Positions 16,387 to 62,706 of a stretch of DNA of 64,000 nt are shown one piece after another; position 1 is the first letter of the stretch, and each line of letters opens with the position of its first letter. The DNA lies in the NCBI GenBank assembly GCA_016929095.1, contig JAFGJM010000036.1, forward strand, positions 124,001 through 188,000. Direction: 5' to 3'. The position numbers and the translations under genes were made by a program. Below the pieces are notes generated by a model that worked only from the letters and a program-made list of their open reading frames with translations, had not been told where the DNA came from and searched no databases. This DNA is from Anaerolineales bacterium (GTDB taxonomy: Bacteria > Chloroflexota > Anaerolineae > Anaerolineales > UBA4823).

Positions 16387-17883
16387 TTAAGGCTCATAAA
16401 CATATATCTTTGCCATATCGTCGCCTTTCACCAATGTCAACGTCTGTTCGAGACGGTCGATGCGGTTATTGGGCGGGATATGATAGAAGATCACCATGAT
16501 GGCTTTTTGCGTAGAATTCGATTTTATTTGTTGATCTAAAGCCTGCACACTTCCCCCAGTCCTTCTGGTCCAGAAATATAAGGTGGAAGGAGAATTACTA
16601 TAGATCGGCAGCGCTTCGTACTCCGGCAACGACTGGATCACCGCCGAGGTTTGCCAAGTGGATCGCGCCAACCCTATACCCTGCCGGTGAAACTTACCAA
16701 TCATCGGCATGGAAACCAGGGTGAAATAAACGATCAGATACACTATGGCAGTGATTATTAACGGTTGTAAAAGTTTTTTCTTGTTCAACCACAGACTGGG
16801 CAAAAGCGCGCTGCCGGGAATGATCAAAGAGACCAACAAAGGGGAAAACATACGGTCGGTCATACCAATTTGATTGTCAACCAGCATCTTAGAAGCGATG
16901 ACCATAGCTATATAAAAGGGGATATATAATCCATGCAACAGAAAAAGCGGTTTCTGCGTTGTGGCAAATATCTTTATCCTTGAAAACGACTCTCGCGTTC
17001 CAAGAAACAGCGCAATCCCAAACCCGATGAGTAATATCACAAAAAACAGGATTGCCCACCGTTCCCTGCCGTTTACTAAATTTTCGGGAATAAACCAAGT
17101 AAATATCGTGTTACCCAGGGAGTACATATTCTTGGTAGTCAAAGGAACCCATTGAAATTCTCGGTTATTGAGCTGCCCGCTTTGAATATAGTTTTTTAAT
17201 GACCATATCGCCATCGGCAATAACACTATAAATACATACATCCCCCCATTAATCCTTGTTTTACGACGACTGACACCCGATTTCCATGTGATGACAACCA
17301 GCGCCGGCAATAAAAGCGCCAGACCGACATACCGCGTCAGCAATGCCAGGCTGGTAGCCAGGGCAGACATCCAAAACCATTGTCGCCCTGATGTCTCGAT
17401 ATATTCTCCCAACCAATAAAATGCCAGTAAACTCAAAAAAATAAATAAAGGCTCACTCAGCACCCATGCGTGTGCCTCGATCAATACCGCTGATAATGCT
17501 GTGAGTAAGCCTCCCACAAGAGCAAACCCGCTGGAGTGGCTGATCTTAAGAATGCTGATACCGACCAGCCATATATTTGCCGCAAAAAGGACGGCATTCA
17601 ACAACCGGGCAGCGCCCAGGCTGTCCACCCCCGCCAATTCAAACGCTGCCAGCGCCACCGAAAAAAAGGGGGGGTACTGACTCAGGGGAATCGTATTACC
17701 ATTTTCATCCGGGTATCCTAAGTGTTGCCCTGCCGCCAAATTCCTGGCAGAAGCCACATATTGGAATGAATCTGAAATCAAACCCCCGCCCCAAACTGTA
17801 CAATACCACACCAATCCAAAACCCAGCCCGCTGATCAGCGCCAGGAGAATCCAAAATAATAATGGTCTGGAGGTTGATTTCAT
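16387..17883 (-). CDS. GT-C-like membrane glycosyltransferase (paralogue 1)
   Basis: Polytopic protein with an N-terminal helix followed by WYCTVWGGGLISDSFQYVASARNL, where the Asp of the SDSF motif sits where GT-C enzymes keep their catalytic acid. LIEAHAWVLSEPLF is shared almost exactly with the paralogue at 37403-38908. Ten or more hydrophobic segments and a short soluble C-terminal domain. It probably transfers a lipid-linked sugar on the outer face. The gap before its start is filled by the palindromic element at 17894-18025. Confidence 0.72.
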   Translation of the reverse strand: MKSTSRPLLFWILLALISGLGFGLVWYCTVWGGGLISDSFQYVASARNLAAGQHLGYPDENGNTIPLSQYPPFFSVALAAFELAGVDSLGAARLLNAVLFAANIWLVGISILKISHSSGFALVGGLLTALSAVLIEAHAWVLSEPLFIFLSLLAFYWLGEYIETSGRQWFWMSALATSLALLTRYVGLALLLPALVVITWKSGVSRRKTRINGGMYVFIVLLPMAIWSLKNYIQSGQLNNREFQWVPLTTKNMYSLGNTIFTWFIPENLVNGRERWAILFFVILLIGFGIALFLGTRESFSRIKIFATTQKPLFLLHGLYIPFYIAMVIASKMLVDNQIGMTDRMFSPLLVSLIIPGSALLPSLWLNKKKLLQPLIITAIVYLIVYFTLVSMPMIGKFHRQGIGLARSTWQTSAVIQSLPEYEALPIYSNSPSTLYFWTRRTGGSVQALDQQIKSNSTQKAIMVIFYHIPPNNRIDRLEQTLTLVKGDDMAKIYVYEP

Positions 17884-17893
17884 AATTCCTGCT

Positions 17894-18025
17894 GGGATTG
17901 TCTAAAAAGTCAAAAATATCATGTTGCAAGAAGTGTGTTTCACGAAGCGAAGCGAAACATCTAAATTTATAATATAGACACTCTTCGCTTCGCTCAGAGT
18001 GACTGTCGTCTTTTGGGACAGCCCC
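17894..18025. repeat. 132-bp palindromic element, copy A
   Basis: Imperfect terminal inverted repeats: GGGATTGTCTAAAAAG at the left end against GGGGCTGTCCCAAAAG read in from the right end. An inner pair AGCGAAGCGAA / TTCGCTTCGCT makes the element foldable along most of its length, and GTTTC...GAAAC makes a smaller stem. A second copy of the same length lies at 61165-61296. No open frame; looks like a MITE or similar non-autonomous element. Confidence 0.75.
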
Positions 18026-18041: not shown

Positions 18042-18881
18042 TTAAAACAAACTTTCGTACTCTACCTTGGGAAAAACTTCAAGCTTTCCCCCCACGGTGG
18101 CGTCCAAAACCTGCCTGCCCGCTTTTGAATAGGCTTCGTGCGCCATACGATAACCGCGTTCCGACATCTCCAGGTCGGGCAATTGCCAGCGAAAGCCTTT
18201 GCCAAAATAGTTACCGGAAAAATGATCGGGGTCATCCCCTTTGGAGATAATGGTGGTATTTGGTTTCCCTTGCGTCGTAAAACTATGATCCACACCAATC
18301 AGGATAACGGTCTCGAAACCCATGAAATATGCCAGTTGCAGTGCGACATAAGTGACCGTTGCGCTTTCCCATAACCTGCCGCGGGCATCCACGGCGAATT
18401 TGGGCCCAGTGTAAGTGGTGTGCAGAAATATGGTGTTGTCATTTGGGTAAAGCGCCATGCCTGCTTCATTTTCATGAAAGGCATCACGTGAGCGCCATGA
18501 AAGGAAACAAGGGATCGGCAGGCATAGAATATCTGCCAGACATTGCTCGATTACCAGGCTGTTCACCGATACATAATACGAAGTCGTAAATCCTAATTTG
18601 TTAAAAAGCAGGTAGATACGGTTCATACCAAAGGAATATTCATGGCGTAATTTCGTTAGATCGGTGTGCTTTAGGCTAGGCCCATTGCCTATGATAAAGC
18701 AACGCTGCCTGGCATGGCTATCTTTTAATTCCGCCAGGCGTTTGATCGAGTCTCTCCGCCAGGGGTGAAATGTCGCTTCCGGCCACTGGGTTGCGTGAAT
18801 GACCCCATGGTAAGCGCTACGGGCGACATTCCATACCGGCTCAGGTAAAAAACGCTTGATTTTCTTTCGAGGTGCGTTCAT
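18042..18881 (-). CDS. DUF115/Maf-like protein
   Basis: Resembles the DUF115 (MptE-like) family, which includes Maf proteins that attach nonulosonic acids to flagellin. FIIGNGPSLKHTD near residues 62-74 is the Rossmann-like nucleotide-binding motif, followed by FGMNRIYL, ESATVTYVALQLAYFMGF and ILIGVDHSF. At 279 residues it is a single-domain version without the flanking Maf regions. It starts in an ATGA overlap with the SDR gene, and a CMP-sugar synthetase is in the same block, so transfer or formation of a nonulosonic-acid-like sugar is a fair guess but not shown. Confidence 0.72.
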   Translation of the reverse strand: MNAPRKKIKRFLPEPVWNVARSAYHGVIHATQWPEATFHPWRRDSIKRLAELKDSHARQRCFIIGNGPSLKHTDLTKLRHEYSFGMNRIYLLFNKLGFTTSYYVSVNSLVIEQCLADILCLPIPCFLSWRSRDAFHENEAGMALYPNDNTIFLHTTYTGPKFAVDARGRLWESATVTYVALQLAYFMGFETVILIGVDHSFTTQGKPNTTIISKGDDPDHFSGNYFGKGFRWQLPDLEMSERGYRMAHEAYSKAGRQVLDATVGGKLEVFPKVEYESLF

Positions 18882-58612: not shown

Positions 58613-60649
58613 TCACTCACATTTCTTATTGATTTTTGTTTGAGGGATCAGTAATTGCACTTTTAACTCTTTAACAGTTTTGATCGCCGTATAATAACAA
58701 CGTAGATTTTTTCCAACGTAATTAACCCAGGCGTTATTTTCTTCGCCAAAGCGCTCGGCTTCTCCTTTCACCGGGAGATATAACGGCTCACTGATGATCA
58801 TGTGATAGCGTTGGTGTTTTAAATCTTGATGAAATTGCTCAAGATATTCCGGATTTCCGGCCATTGCCATCTCCATTAAAAATACCCGTTCATACTCCGG
58901 AACAAGCTTTACGCCCTGTACTTCGCCAAAGATCAATAATTGGCGCTCCCCGATGAATAACACGTCACCCTCCGCCCCGGCTTTCTCAATCAAGCGACGG
59001 ATTTTTGACAGGTCCGTATCGAGAACTTCCTGGTCCGGATAGGTCAATGCACCGCCGGAAAAAATGGTAAATAAAACCGGCGCTAAAATTGCATAAGACA
59101 GCAGTATTCCGTGTAAGTTTATATTGAGACGTTTCACCTCAAGTGGATGAAGAGACCCATCACTTTCAGACGGCGGTGTATCGAATGTTAATTTATCAAA
59201 ATAGATCAAACCGCAAATGACCAAAAGCACAGTCAGAAAAGCATCCATGTTGTGTAAATTGCTGCCACCGCCGATTTTAACACTCACCACCAAACCCCCG
59301 GCAAATAAGACGAACAATATGGCGGCTAATCCAACCAACCGGATAATATGCACCCGATGCCAATGCCTCCATAGCCGCATACAAGCCAACAAAATCAACG
59401 GCAATGAAACAAAAACCGCTGCACCCAGGATGCCCAATGGATAGGTCGAATTGGGAAATAATCGATACCACAGCAAATTAGATGAAAAACTGGAAGTAAA
59501 CTGCCCCACCGGATTACCCGAAATCCGGATATATACAACCTGGGAAACTGCGGCAATGACGAAGCCTCCAACGGTCGACAAAGCAGGGAGTAACAGATAA
59601 CGCCATAAAGATTTCCCCTGCCGGTTTACTTCGAGGAAATACAAGGCGGAAGCTAACAACCCCGGCACGGGATACCAGTTCACCCGGCTGATTCCCGCCC
59701 ATATCGAAGCAAAAACCAACGCCAGATATGAAATGATGAGACTACGACGATCATGTCGAGTTGGGAAAAAGCAGGCGATGATCAGAATCGCCGGTACCTG
59801 CAGGTGATAATATACCGGGCCGATCAGAACGAATAAAAAGCTCCACACGACTACTGTAAGACGTAAAAACCCATCCCGGATATCCAACCGGCGGGTAAAC
59901 ACCGTAGCAAAGCCCAAGCTGATAAAAATCCACAACACCACCTGCCATAAGCGGTGTAACCAAAGCGGGGAATGAGGAATAATAAACGGAATGGATTGCA
60001 AAAGATAACGCGTGGGATGCAAAATGGTTAGCGGGAGCGCCTCTCCATATATTTTTTTAGCAAAAAACAAGGAGGCGTAATAATAACGGCTGGCTTCCGA
60101 CCAACTCAGAGTTAGCGGATATGTAGAAACATCAGGGATATATGCCGCTAATCTAAAGCCAAAGGCTGTGAAAACAGCCGCGCCGCCTAACAACACGATC
60201 CACCGTTGACGAATGCCTGCCGATTTCAATAAACCACTTCCCAAACACGTTAACAGCCAAAAGGACAACAGCCGGGATGCTTTATCTTTATAGATCAATC
60301 CCGAAGGGCTCATTAATAAATATGAAACGCCAGCTACCATCAGCACAAAAACCAGGATATTGACGCGCTTAAATTGGCGCAGCCAGGTTTCCCCCCTATC
60401 GAAATATTCAAATACCAGCCCCTGCCAGCGTGAGAATGAAACGCCGAGGGTAAATATTGAAAAAAAGCAGACGCCTATCCCAAAAACAAACTTTACCAGA
60501 AGCCGCCGGGATAAGAAAAGAATCCCCGCCTGGTATGCCGGAATTGCAAAACTATATACCCACCAGGCAAAAAGAAAAGCGGTAATCCCGCATACCACAC
60601 GCAAGGCGTTCACACGCCAATGATCCTTAATTTCGCCAGTATTTTGCAT
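58613..60649 (-). CDS. large polytopic membrane protein, GT-C-like
   Basis: 678 residues with about twelve hydrophobic segments to residue 535 and a soluble C-terminal domain (540-678) containing GDVLFIGERQLLIF and IISEPLYLP. No glycosyltransferase motif can be fixed with certainty; the SWSEASRYYYASLFFAKKIYG loop near residue 180 could hold a catalytic acid. The C-terminal domain resembles those of membrane glycosyltransferases, which read a carrier-linked glycan. It lies 7 bases after the flippase-like gene, in the gmd transcription unit. Confidence 0.65.
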   Translation of the reverse strand: MQNTGEIKDHWRVNALRVVCGITAFLFAWWVYSFAIPAYQAGILFLSRRLLVKFVFGIGVCFFSIFTLGVSFSRWQGLVFEYFDRGETWLRQFKRVNILVFVLMVAGVSYLLMSPSGLIYKDKASRLLSFWLLTCLGSGLLKSAGIRQRWIVLLGGAAVFTAFGFRLAAYIPDVSTYPLTLSWSEASRYYYASLFFAKKIYGEALPLTILHPTRYLLQSIPFIIPHSPLWLHRLWQVVLWIFISLGFATVFTRRLDIRDGFLRLTVVVWSFLFVLIGPVYYHLQVPAILIIACFFPTRHDRRSLIISYLALVFASIWAGISRVNWYPVPGLLASALYFLEVNRQGKSLWRYLLLPALSTVGGFVIAAVSQVVYIRISGNPVGQFTSSFSSNLLWYRLFPNSTYPLGILGAAVFVSLPLILLACMRLWRHWHRVHIIRLVGLAAILFVLFAGGLVVSVKIGGGSNLHNMDAFLTVLLVICGLIYFDKLTFDTPPSESDGSLHPLEVKRLNINLHGILLSYAILAPVLFTIFSGGALTYPDQEVLDTDLSKIRRLIEKAGAEGDVLFIGERQLLIFGEVQGVKLVPEYERVFLMEMAMAGNPEYLEQFHQDLKHQRYHMIISEPLYLPVKGEAERFGEENNAWVNYVGKNLRCYYTAIKTVKELKVQLLIPQTKINKKCE

Positions 60650-60656
60650 ATCGGTA

Positions 60657-61760
60657 TCAATCCGGGGTGATAACCGGTAGATCTTCGCTGGGTGTTTGCG
60701 TCTGTTTGGCGCGGGCTTCTAAAATACCAGGCACAAAAAATGCGCCTGGCAAGCTGGCGAACATCACCAGGGTGCGGAGCAATAAAGCAATCGTCAGGCT
60801 GCTTTGGTAAGAGATGCCCCCCAGGTTTGAATAGATAAATGCCATCGAGACTTCTTGCAGACCATAACCATTGATCGAAATGGGGATTTGCGTGATAAAG
60901 TAAACAAAACTCCACAACCCGGCGACATGCCAAAAGGTGATCGTCTCACCCATGCCATGCAATAACAGGGTAATGGTTCCGAAATGACACAACATATGTA
61001 CCCAGGTGCAAATGAAGGCGTAGATCAATCCTTTTGGATGATTTACCCACCTGGAAAAAGCGGTTACAACCTGTTTGATAAACCGGCGTCCTTTCTCCCA
61101 TAATGTTTGCATCCATTGATTTCGAGAGAATAGCGACAGGCTAAGCACGATTGGGATATCTTGTGAGTTTGTCCAAAAAGTTGATTTGTTCTTGTCGCAC
61201 GAAGTATGTTTCACAAGCGAAGCGAAACATCTCACGCGAGAGATAAAAAGACCCTTCGCTTCATTCAGGTTGTCAGGCTTCTTTGGGGGCAATCCCATGG
61301 TTAGCCCGGAAGCCAGGTGGGATAAACCAAAAGGTAAAGCCGTCACCATCCCTGCCATCCCTATCAGGCGGTCGACAATCAAAGAGGCTGTACCGATGGA
61401 GACATCATATTTGAGTTGAATGGCGCCCGCCAAACGCACCACATCCCCGCCAATTGTAGTAGGCAAAAAGTTGGAGGCAAATAACCCGCTAAACGTCAAT
61501 CGCGCGCTATCCTGGAAGGAAATATCCAGTCCTGCCGATTTTAGCAAAACATGCCATCTGCCGGTAACAGCCAGGCGTGAAATAAAAATCAGCCCGATTG
61601 CCAACAAAAAGCGGTTAAAGGGGATCAAGCGGATGGCATCGACGATTTCATTCCACCCCTGCTGGCTGAGCAATACCACCAATAAAGCCAGGGTTAAGAG
61701 GGTTCCCCCAAGTCGCAGCCACAATCCCTTATTTTGCCTGTTCATCAGGCTGTTTCTCAT
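60657..61760 (-). CDS. LPG synthase TM/UPF0104 membrane protein interrupted in frame by a repeat element
   Basis: Same family as 8579-9649 (ISRLAVTGRWHVLL, FSGLFASNFLPTTIGGDVVRL, SLIVDRLIGMAGM, and ISINGYGLQEVSMAFIY). Between SGLTM and QDIPI lie 44 residues (GLPPKKPDNLNEAKG ... STFWTNS) that are hydrophilic, contain three Cys and do not belong to the family; they are the translation of the palindromic element at 61165-61296. Without them the protein would be 323 residues, the normal size. The frame stays open, so the protein may still fold with an extra loop. ATG 61760 has an AAGGTG site. Confidence 0.85.
   Translation of the reverse strand: MRNSLMNRQNKGLWLRLGGTLLTLALLVVLLSQQGWNEIVDAIRLIPFNRFLLAIGLIFISRLAVTGRWHVLLKSAGLDISFQDSARLTFSGLFASNFLPTTIGGDVVRLAGAIQLKYDVSIGTASLIVDRLIGMAGMVTALPFGLSHLASGLTMGLPPKKPDNLNEAKGLFISRVRCFASLVKHTSCDKNKSTFWTNSQDIPIVLSLSLFSRNQWMQTLWEKGRRFIKQVVTAFSRWVNHPKGLIYAFICTWVHMLCHFGTITLLLHGMGETITFWHVAGLWSFVYFITQIPISINGYGLQEVSMAFIYSNLGGISYQSSLTIALLLRTLVMFASLPGAFFVPGILEARAKQTQTPSEDLPVITPD
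61165..61296. repeat. 132-bp palindromic element, copy B, inside a gene
   Basis: Same length as copy A (17894-18025) and alignable from end to end with small gaps. The core AAGCGAAGCGAAACATCT is identical in both, and ATGTTTC...GAAACAT makes an internal stem. Its length is 44 codons exactly, so the host gene keeps its frame. Confidence 0.78.
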
Positions 61761-62706
61761 TGATCACCTTACGGATATTGTAGATGGGTTTCCGCTGCGA
61801 TTCGTGATAAGTGCGGATGAGCATTTCTGCCAATAAGCCCATTAGAATCGATTGAACACCCAGTATCATCAACATGGTCGTTAATTGCAATAGCGGCGAA
61901 CGAATCAGGTGTTCGTCATATAAAATTCGGCGGACGATTAAAGCAATCAGAGTAATGACGCTTATTGCCATTAACCCTAATCCGGCGCCGCCAAACAGAT
62001 AAATGGGTTTATTAGCATAACTCATCAAGAATTTAACAGTAAAAAGATCCAACACCACTTTGAGTGTGCGCCCAAGCCCATATTTGGCTTTGCCATATTT
62101 TCGGGCATGATGGTGCACAGGGACTTCCACGATTTTGGCGCCAACACTGGATGCAAAAGCAGGAATAAAGCGATGCATTTCACCATAAAGATGAAACCCA
62201 GCCAGCACCTCTTTGCGATATGCTTTTAAGGTGCAACCATAATCGTGCAAGTGAACACCGGTGACGATGGAAATCAACCCGTTGGCAATCCGTGAAGGAA
62301 GCGTACGGGTGATAAAAGTATCCTGCCGGTTAACGCGCCAACCGCTGACCACATCATAGCCTTGATTGATCTTTTCCATCATCATGGGGATATCAGCAGG
62401 ATCGTTCTGCAGATCAGCGTCCAGTAAAACGATCACATCTCCCTGAGAATGATCGATCCCCGCCACAATGGCTGCTGTTTGACCGAAATTGCGGCGAAAT
62501 GAAACCACGCGAATGTGCGCCGGATCGTTGGCTGCCAACTTTTCCAACACCGGTAAGCTGTTATCTGCACTGCCATCATCGATGTATACCACTTCCCAGG
62601 GGATATTTAACTCACTCAAAGCGCTATTAATGGCTTCGTGTAAAAAGCCAAGGCTTTCTTCTTCGTTGTAAACAGGAACTACGATTGAAAGGCTATATGA
62701 TTCCAC
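61729..62706 (-). CDS. GT2 polyprenyl-phosphate glycosyltransferase (GtrB/DPM1-like)
   Basis: Makes a polyprenyl-phosphate-linked sugar on the inner membrane face. SIVVPVYNEEESLG, IDDGSADNS, FRRNFGQTAAIVAGIDHSQGDVIVLLDADLQNDPADIP carry the donor and metal sites (DADLQND), and KYGKAKYG precedes two transmembrane segments (about residues 225-305), as in GtrB and ArnC. It would supply the lipid-linked donor for the GT-C and PMT-like proteins of this locus. Confidence 0.94.
   Translation of the reverse strand: MESYSLSIVVPVYNEEESLGFLHEAINSALSELNIPWEVVYIDDGSADNSLPVLEKLAANDPAHIRVVSFRRNFGQTAAIVAGIDHSQGDVIVLLDADLQNDPADIPMMMEKINQGYDVVSGWRVNRQDTFITRTLPSRIANGLISIVTGVHLHDYGCTLKAYRKEVLAGFHLYGEMHRFIPAFASSVGAKIVEVPVHHHARKYGKAKYGLGRTLKVVLDLFTVKFLMSYANKPIYLFGGAGLGLMAISVITLIALIVRRILYDEHLIRSPLLQLTTMLMILGVQSILMGLLAEMLIRTYHESQRKPIYNIRKVINEKQPDEQAK

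Follow-up and report, generated by a model that had tools for sequence, protein, structure and literature searches.

The window, a 64,000-nucleotide stretch of one contig from the draft genome of an Anaerolineales bacterium, contains two elements of exactly 132 bp, one between genes (17894-18025) and one within a gene for a membrane protein (61165-61296). Two copies of equal length at these positions had been reported in the initial annotation of the sequence, and both are confirmed here. The copies share an exact AAGCGAAGCGAAACATCT core, at 17945 and 61215; 0.04 such matches are expected in shuffled sequences even when three mismatches are allowed. The features discussed below are as follows.

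61165..61296, + strand: copy of the MITE-like palindromic element, subtype 1; matches the family over its full length and lies in phase in the host gene, which is antisense to the element's + orientation
61165..61180, + strand: left terminal inverted repeat, GAGTTTGTCCAAAAAG (family form GGGGYTGTCCNAAAAG), from the family alignment
61281..61296, - strand: right terminal inverted repeat, GGGATTGCCCCCAAAG on the - strand (family form GGGGYTGTCCCAAAAG), from the family alignment
61250..61276, + strand: inner hairpin of the in-gene copy, a degraded form of the cross-phylum unit (GACCCTTCGCTTCATTCAGGTTGTCAG), aligned to consensus positions 86-112
60657..61760, - strand: host gene for an LPG_synthase_TM (flippase-like) membrane protein of 367 aa (PF03706, E=4e-33), with the insert at codons 155-199
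17894..18025, + strand: second copy, of subtype 2, in an intergenic position; the neighboring genes, both on the - strand, start near 17883 and end at 18042, respectively
17980..18004, + strand: inner hairpin of the intergenic copy, ACTCTTCGCTTCGCTCAGAGTGACT, whose last base departs from the cross-phylum pattern

The host gene, which is single-copy, is open through all 367 codons with the element inside. The element occupies gene nucleotides 465 to 596 and adds 44 codons' worth of sequence (GLPPKKPDNLNEAKGLFISRVRCFASLVKHTSCDKNKSTFWTNS). The earlier description of the added segment as hydrophilic and Cys-containing holds, with a mean Kyte-Doolittle value of -0.63 for the insert, versus +0.57 for the remaining protein, and two cysteines. 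The host gene is flanked on one side by a gene for a family 2 glycosyltransferase and on the other by a gene for a 678-aa protein that has no Pfam match and looks multi-membrane; the neighborhood (window positions 58613 to 62706) is an apparent cell-envelope glycosylation cluster. Rfam covariance models gave no match up to an E value of 1 for positions 61100 to 61360, the region of the in-gene copy, which is less well preserved than the copy at 17894. The copy at 17894 lies upstream of a minus-strand gene (an open frame of about 500 codons) whose apparent start codon is about 10 bases from the end of the element (17881 to 17894), close enough that the element may shape the 5' leader of that gene.

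The genome to which the window belongs is an 87% complete draft of 3.9 Mb in 61 contigs. Two similarity searches of this genome each returned at least 40 scored candidates, and copy numbers derived from them are lower bounds. After a profile search and removal of duplicates, 47 distinct copies were aligned in one orientation, and a search with the end pattern added at least 3 decayed copies, giving a family of about 50 copies in the draft genome. An absence of further copies had been named in advance as grounds for rejecting a mobile element; instead, there are dozens. Six contigs (C19, C21, C30, C40, C52, and C53) start or stop within the core of the element; the repeat thus seems to have broken the assembly, and the true copy number may be higher. 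Full-length relatives of the element are also present in a genome of the same genus (G001).

Aligned copies have inverted repeats GGGGYTGTCCNAAAAG at their ends, which enclose a double hairpin, and they are uniform in length: 29 of the 40 copies with both ends measure 131 to 133 bp (133 bp in 13, 132 bp in 10, and 131 bp in 6). Two subtypes are distinguished by their left arms (TCAATTTTGTCATG versus TCAAAAATGTCATG) and also by their loops. The consensus of subtype 1 is 133 bp long, folds strongly (z = -6.7), and has one stop-free frame per strand through all 44 codons. The initial annotation noted that 132 bp is exactly 44 codons; this is correct for the two window copies, but given the 133-bp consensus, the family has no fixed length divisible by three, and 132 bp applies to these copies. 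Consistent with its length, the in-gene copy carries a one-base deletion that changes CACGAAGC to CACAAGC, and a full-length 133-bp copy without a target duplication would shift the frame. Among the 47 copies, only that at 61165 spans a convincing gene; in G001, no such case was found among 30 loci. A candidate for a second gene-borne copy (L053) had seemed to have an open frame, but the element there precedes the start of the gene, which is SDR-like. We did not find this element family described in the literature; the event in the host gene adds a further example to a phenomenon that is already known.

We asked whether the insert has a counterpart in related proteins, since the same 44 residues in orthologues would have pointed to a true protein domain. 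None of the seven aligned orthologues, one from G001 and six from the same family and order, has these residues, and the loop in which the insert lies varies in length among them. The G001 orthologue is 79% and 73% identical to the host protein on the two sides of the insert and differs in its loop by a further 6 residues, and it is too distant for the empty site to be reconstructed. In the N-terminal flank, dN is about 0.16 to 0.18 and dS is 0.85 to 1.6 (dN/dS of about 0.1 to 0.2), and dS is saturated in the C-terminal flank. The in-gene copy is about 84% identical to its subtype consensus, a divergence of about 15%. With neutral change of 15.5%, the probability of finding no stop codon in the flanks is about 0.006, provided that the divergence of the insert accumulated at this site. 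The gene has therefore most likely been under selection since the insertion. Since it is intact despite the divergence of the insert, the cell probably makes and tolerates the extended protein. We infer neutral tolerance of the insert, not a new function.

These observations bear on three other accounts of the locus. If the 44 residues were a real domain of the flippase-like family, with only a secondary resemblance to a repeat, an open frame through the insert would be expected; however, this account is already contradicted by the orthologues without the insert, and the inserted DNA can be aligned over its whole length with about 50 other copies that are nearly all intergenic, such that we regard it as barely credible. 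It is also improbable, though less extremely so, that the host gene is a decaying pseudogene left open by luck. The divergence of the insert would fit such decay, but both flanks are in an intact frame with a conserved family match, and neither the low dN/dS of the N-terminal flank nor the small probability of a stop-free sequence is what neutral decay predicts. Finally, several contigs stop within the repeat core, indicating that the assembler had trouble with this element family, and the repeat could have been joined into the gene artificially. Such an artifact is very unlikely, as both halves of the gene match orthologues in order and the in-gene copy shares no more than 81% identity with any full-length stretch of another copy, making it hard to confuse with them during assembly.

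Inverted ends and a nested palindrome were both part of the original description of the element. The ends are indeed of the GGGGYTGTCCNAAAAG type, but in the in-gene copy little is left of the palindromic folding that characterizes the family (z = +0.4 and -0.9), and its fold is weaker than those of intergenic copies of similar divergence. We considered selection against an mRNA hairpin as a cause and rejected it: drift simulations produced folds this weak on both strands in 4 to 7% of cases, and the weak fold is thus not significant.

As in MITEs, which measure 70 to 300 bp, copies of this family are short, non-autonomous, dispersed in large numbers at uniform length, and bounded by terminal inverted repeats. 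Adjacent direct repeats of 1 to 10 bp were no more frequent beside family copies than in permuted flanks. Given this lack of a detectable target-site duplication, we call the element MITE-like and not a confirmed MITE. Flanks of the copies are instead inverted-complementary (P = 0.0005 over 30 bp and about 0.001 for adjacent sequence), meaning that copies tend to sit centrally in larger palindromes, many of them C-rich/G-rich hairpins. The C-rich/G-rich palindromes flanking six copies (L002, L003, L005, L006, L010, and L024) resemble a second repeat family used as a target.

Two transposase families, PF13751 and Y1, were searched for as possible mobilizers. PF13751, which we take to be the mark of the IS1182 family, was found neither in the 87% complete genome of the window nor in G001. 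A genome of the same family (G002), however, holds an insertion sequence (IS) with a 541-aa transposase and ends GGGGCTGTCCAAAAAG and CTTTCTAGACAGCCCC, which depart from the degenerate end pattern of the element by 0 and 1 mismatches. This IS1182-type IS is present in many copies, mostly at contig ends, and its right end carries an additional small hairpin, GGGGCTGTCTAGAAAGGACAGCTAGACAGCCCC (L379, L381, L383, and L384-L391). The proposed search for a parent IS thus yielded an IS with fitting ends in a same-family genome; in the genome of the window, the additional end matches examined proved to be either MITE copies in decay or isolated matches next to ordinary genes. A RAYT (Y1 transposase) was also rejected as the mobilizer, with no adjoining hairpin at any of 20 Y1-type loci in 13 genomes of the order, two of these loci being in the genome of the window. 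The initial reading of the element as a MITE is supported by its inverted ends, uniform length, and dispersed copies and by the matching ends of an IS in the same family; it falls short of proof because neither a transposase of this type in the draft genome itself nor a target duplication was found.

The most surprising result concerns the inner part of the element, a short hairpin with compensatory arm changes that is common to very distant phyla. Consensus positions 86 to 112 were matched, without the ends of the element, in many genomes of the order, and the corresponding pattern, AYYCTTCGCTTCGCTCAGRRTGACA, was found in at least 119 stretches of the genome collection, for which at least 14 phyla are named; isolates and one complete genome are among the sources. 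Of 400 genomes sampled from the phylum of the window, 53 contain the inner hairpin, and the reversed control pattern was found in no listed genome. The arms have two variable positions, and these agree in 133 of 134 occurrences, versus 61 expected if they were independent. An inverted partner lies within 120 bp upstream of 61 of 121 cores, versus 1.2 in shuffles, and the sequences outside such pairs are themselves inverted repeats (P = 0.0003) that differ between taxa. Inverted pairs in other phyla (L145-L263) range from tens of bases to about 145 bp, and the window element has the same layout. A motif, AAAAAGT, initially appeared to be shared beside the hairpins of other phyla, but with 51 pairs it was present on just 6 sides (about 0.7 expected), too few to support a strong claim. 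Text searches by sequence and by typical peptide returned no published description of the hairpin; they covered few subscription journals, and it may be described elsewhere. We tentatively suggest that the double hairpin, TGTCA-YYCTGAG..CGAAGRR-TCT ... AGA-YYCTTCG..CTCAGRR-TGACA, could well be an undescribed mobile hairpin of at least 14 phyla that resides within elements of differing outer ends. If so, the window element would be one host's version of a pan-bacterial mobile palindrome that occasionally turns into protein sequence, and the carrier enzyme and the route between phyla would become concrete questions.

Alternatively, the true mobile unit might be the inner double hairpin (TGTCA...TGACA) alone, a REPIN-like unit moved by an unknown enzyme, with the GGGGYTGTCC repeats serving as a host-specific shell or as a palindromic target. 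The occurrence of the hairpin without the element's ends, its frequent inverted pairing, and the taxon-specific yet inverted outer flanks all favor this possibility. Against it, copies in the genome of the window share the complete 131 to 133 bp including the ends, which implies that the whole unit multiplied there, and the Y1-transposase loci examined have no hairpin beside them. We therefore consider it doubtful, though the most serious of the alternatives.

We are fairly confident that the feature at 61165 is an old copy of a non-autonomous, MITE-like element that was probably moved in trans and now lies in phase within a gene that apparently stayed functional. The family has spread to about 50 sites in the genome, mainly between genes, and also occurs in another species of the genus. 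A transposase recognizing GGGGYTGTCC-type ends, most likely of the IS1182 type, probably mobilized it in trans and would now be absent or encoded in an unassembled part of the genome. One copy entered the LPG_synthase_TM gene, at a loop that lies between membrane segments and varies in length. Stop-free frames run along the whole element and the net gain in length is divisible by three, which would have allowed the protein to gain 44 residues and keep its function.

Several known systems resemble parts of this picture. REP and REPIN sequences (GTAG- and CGTC-tagged) are inverted, mostly intergenic hairpins of several phyla (PMC3733652). Hairpins of the window type are likewise inverted, mostly intergenic, and spread over several phyla, but they have TGTCA/TCT boundaries in place of GTAG or CGTC tags, and none adjoins a Y1 gene at the 20 loci. 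The likeness of the IS1182-type IS of G002 to the element is one of ends, and such a transposase was found in neither the genome of the window nor G001. In Coxiella QMITEs, ERIC, and Anabaena elements, MITEs with inverted ends are mostly intergenic and occasionally insert in frame or extend a protein (PMC5896051, PMC10969869); the window family differs from QMITEs and other MITE fusions in its host and ends and in showing no adjacent target duplication. The Rickettsia RPE, the one precedent offered by the initial annotation, is a palindromic element of about 100 to 150 bp that lies in frame in functional genes and adds an extra peptide (PMC10969869, PMC3733652). That precedent is apt for in-frame insertion but too narrow, given Coxiella and others (PMC10969869, PMC5896051). 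Like an RPE as described in the literature, the copy at 61165 is absent from the aligned orthologues, keeps the frame, and leaves its host gene intact. Nearly half of RPEs are in genes, versus 1 of 47 copies here, and the hosts are unrelated. The window thus provides a case beyond the usual Rickettsia and Coxiella examples, in which a mobile palindrome has become part of a membrane protein whose function was apparently kept.
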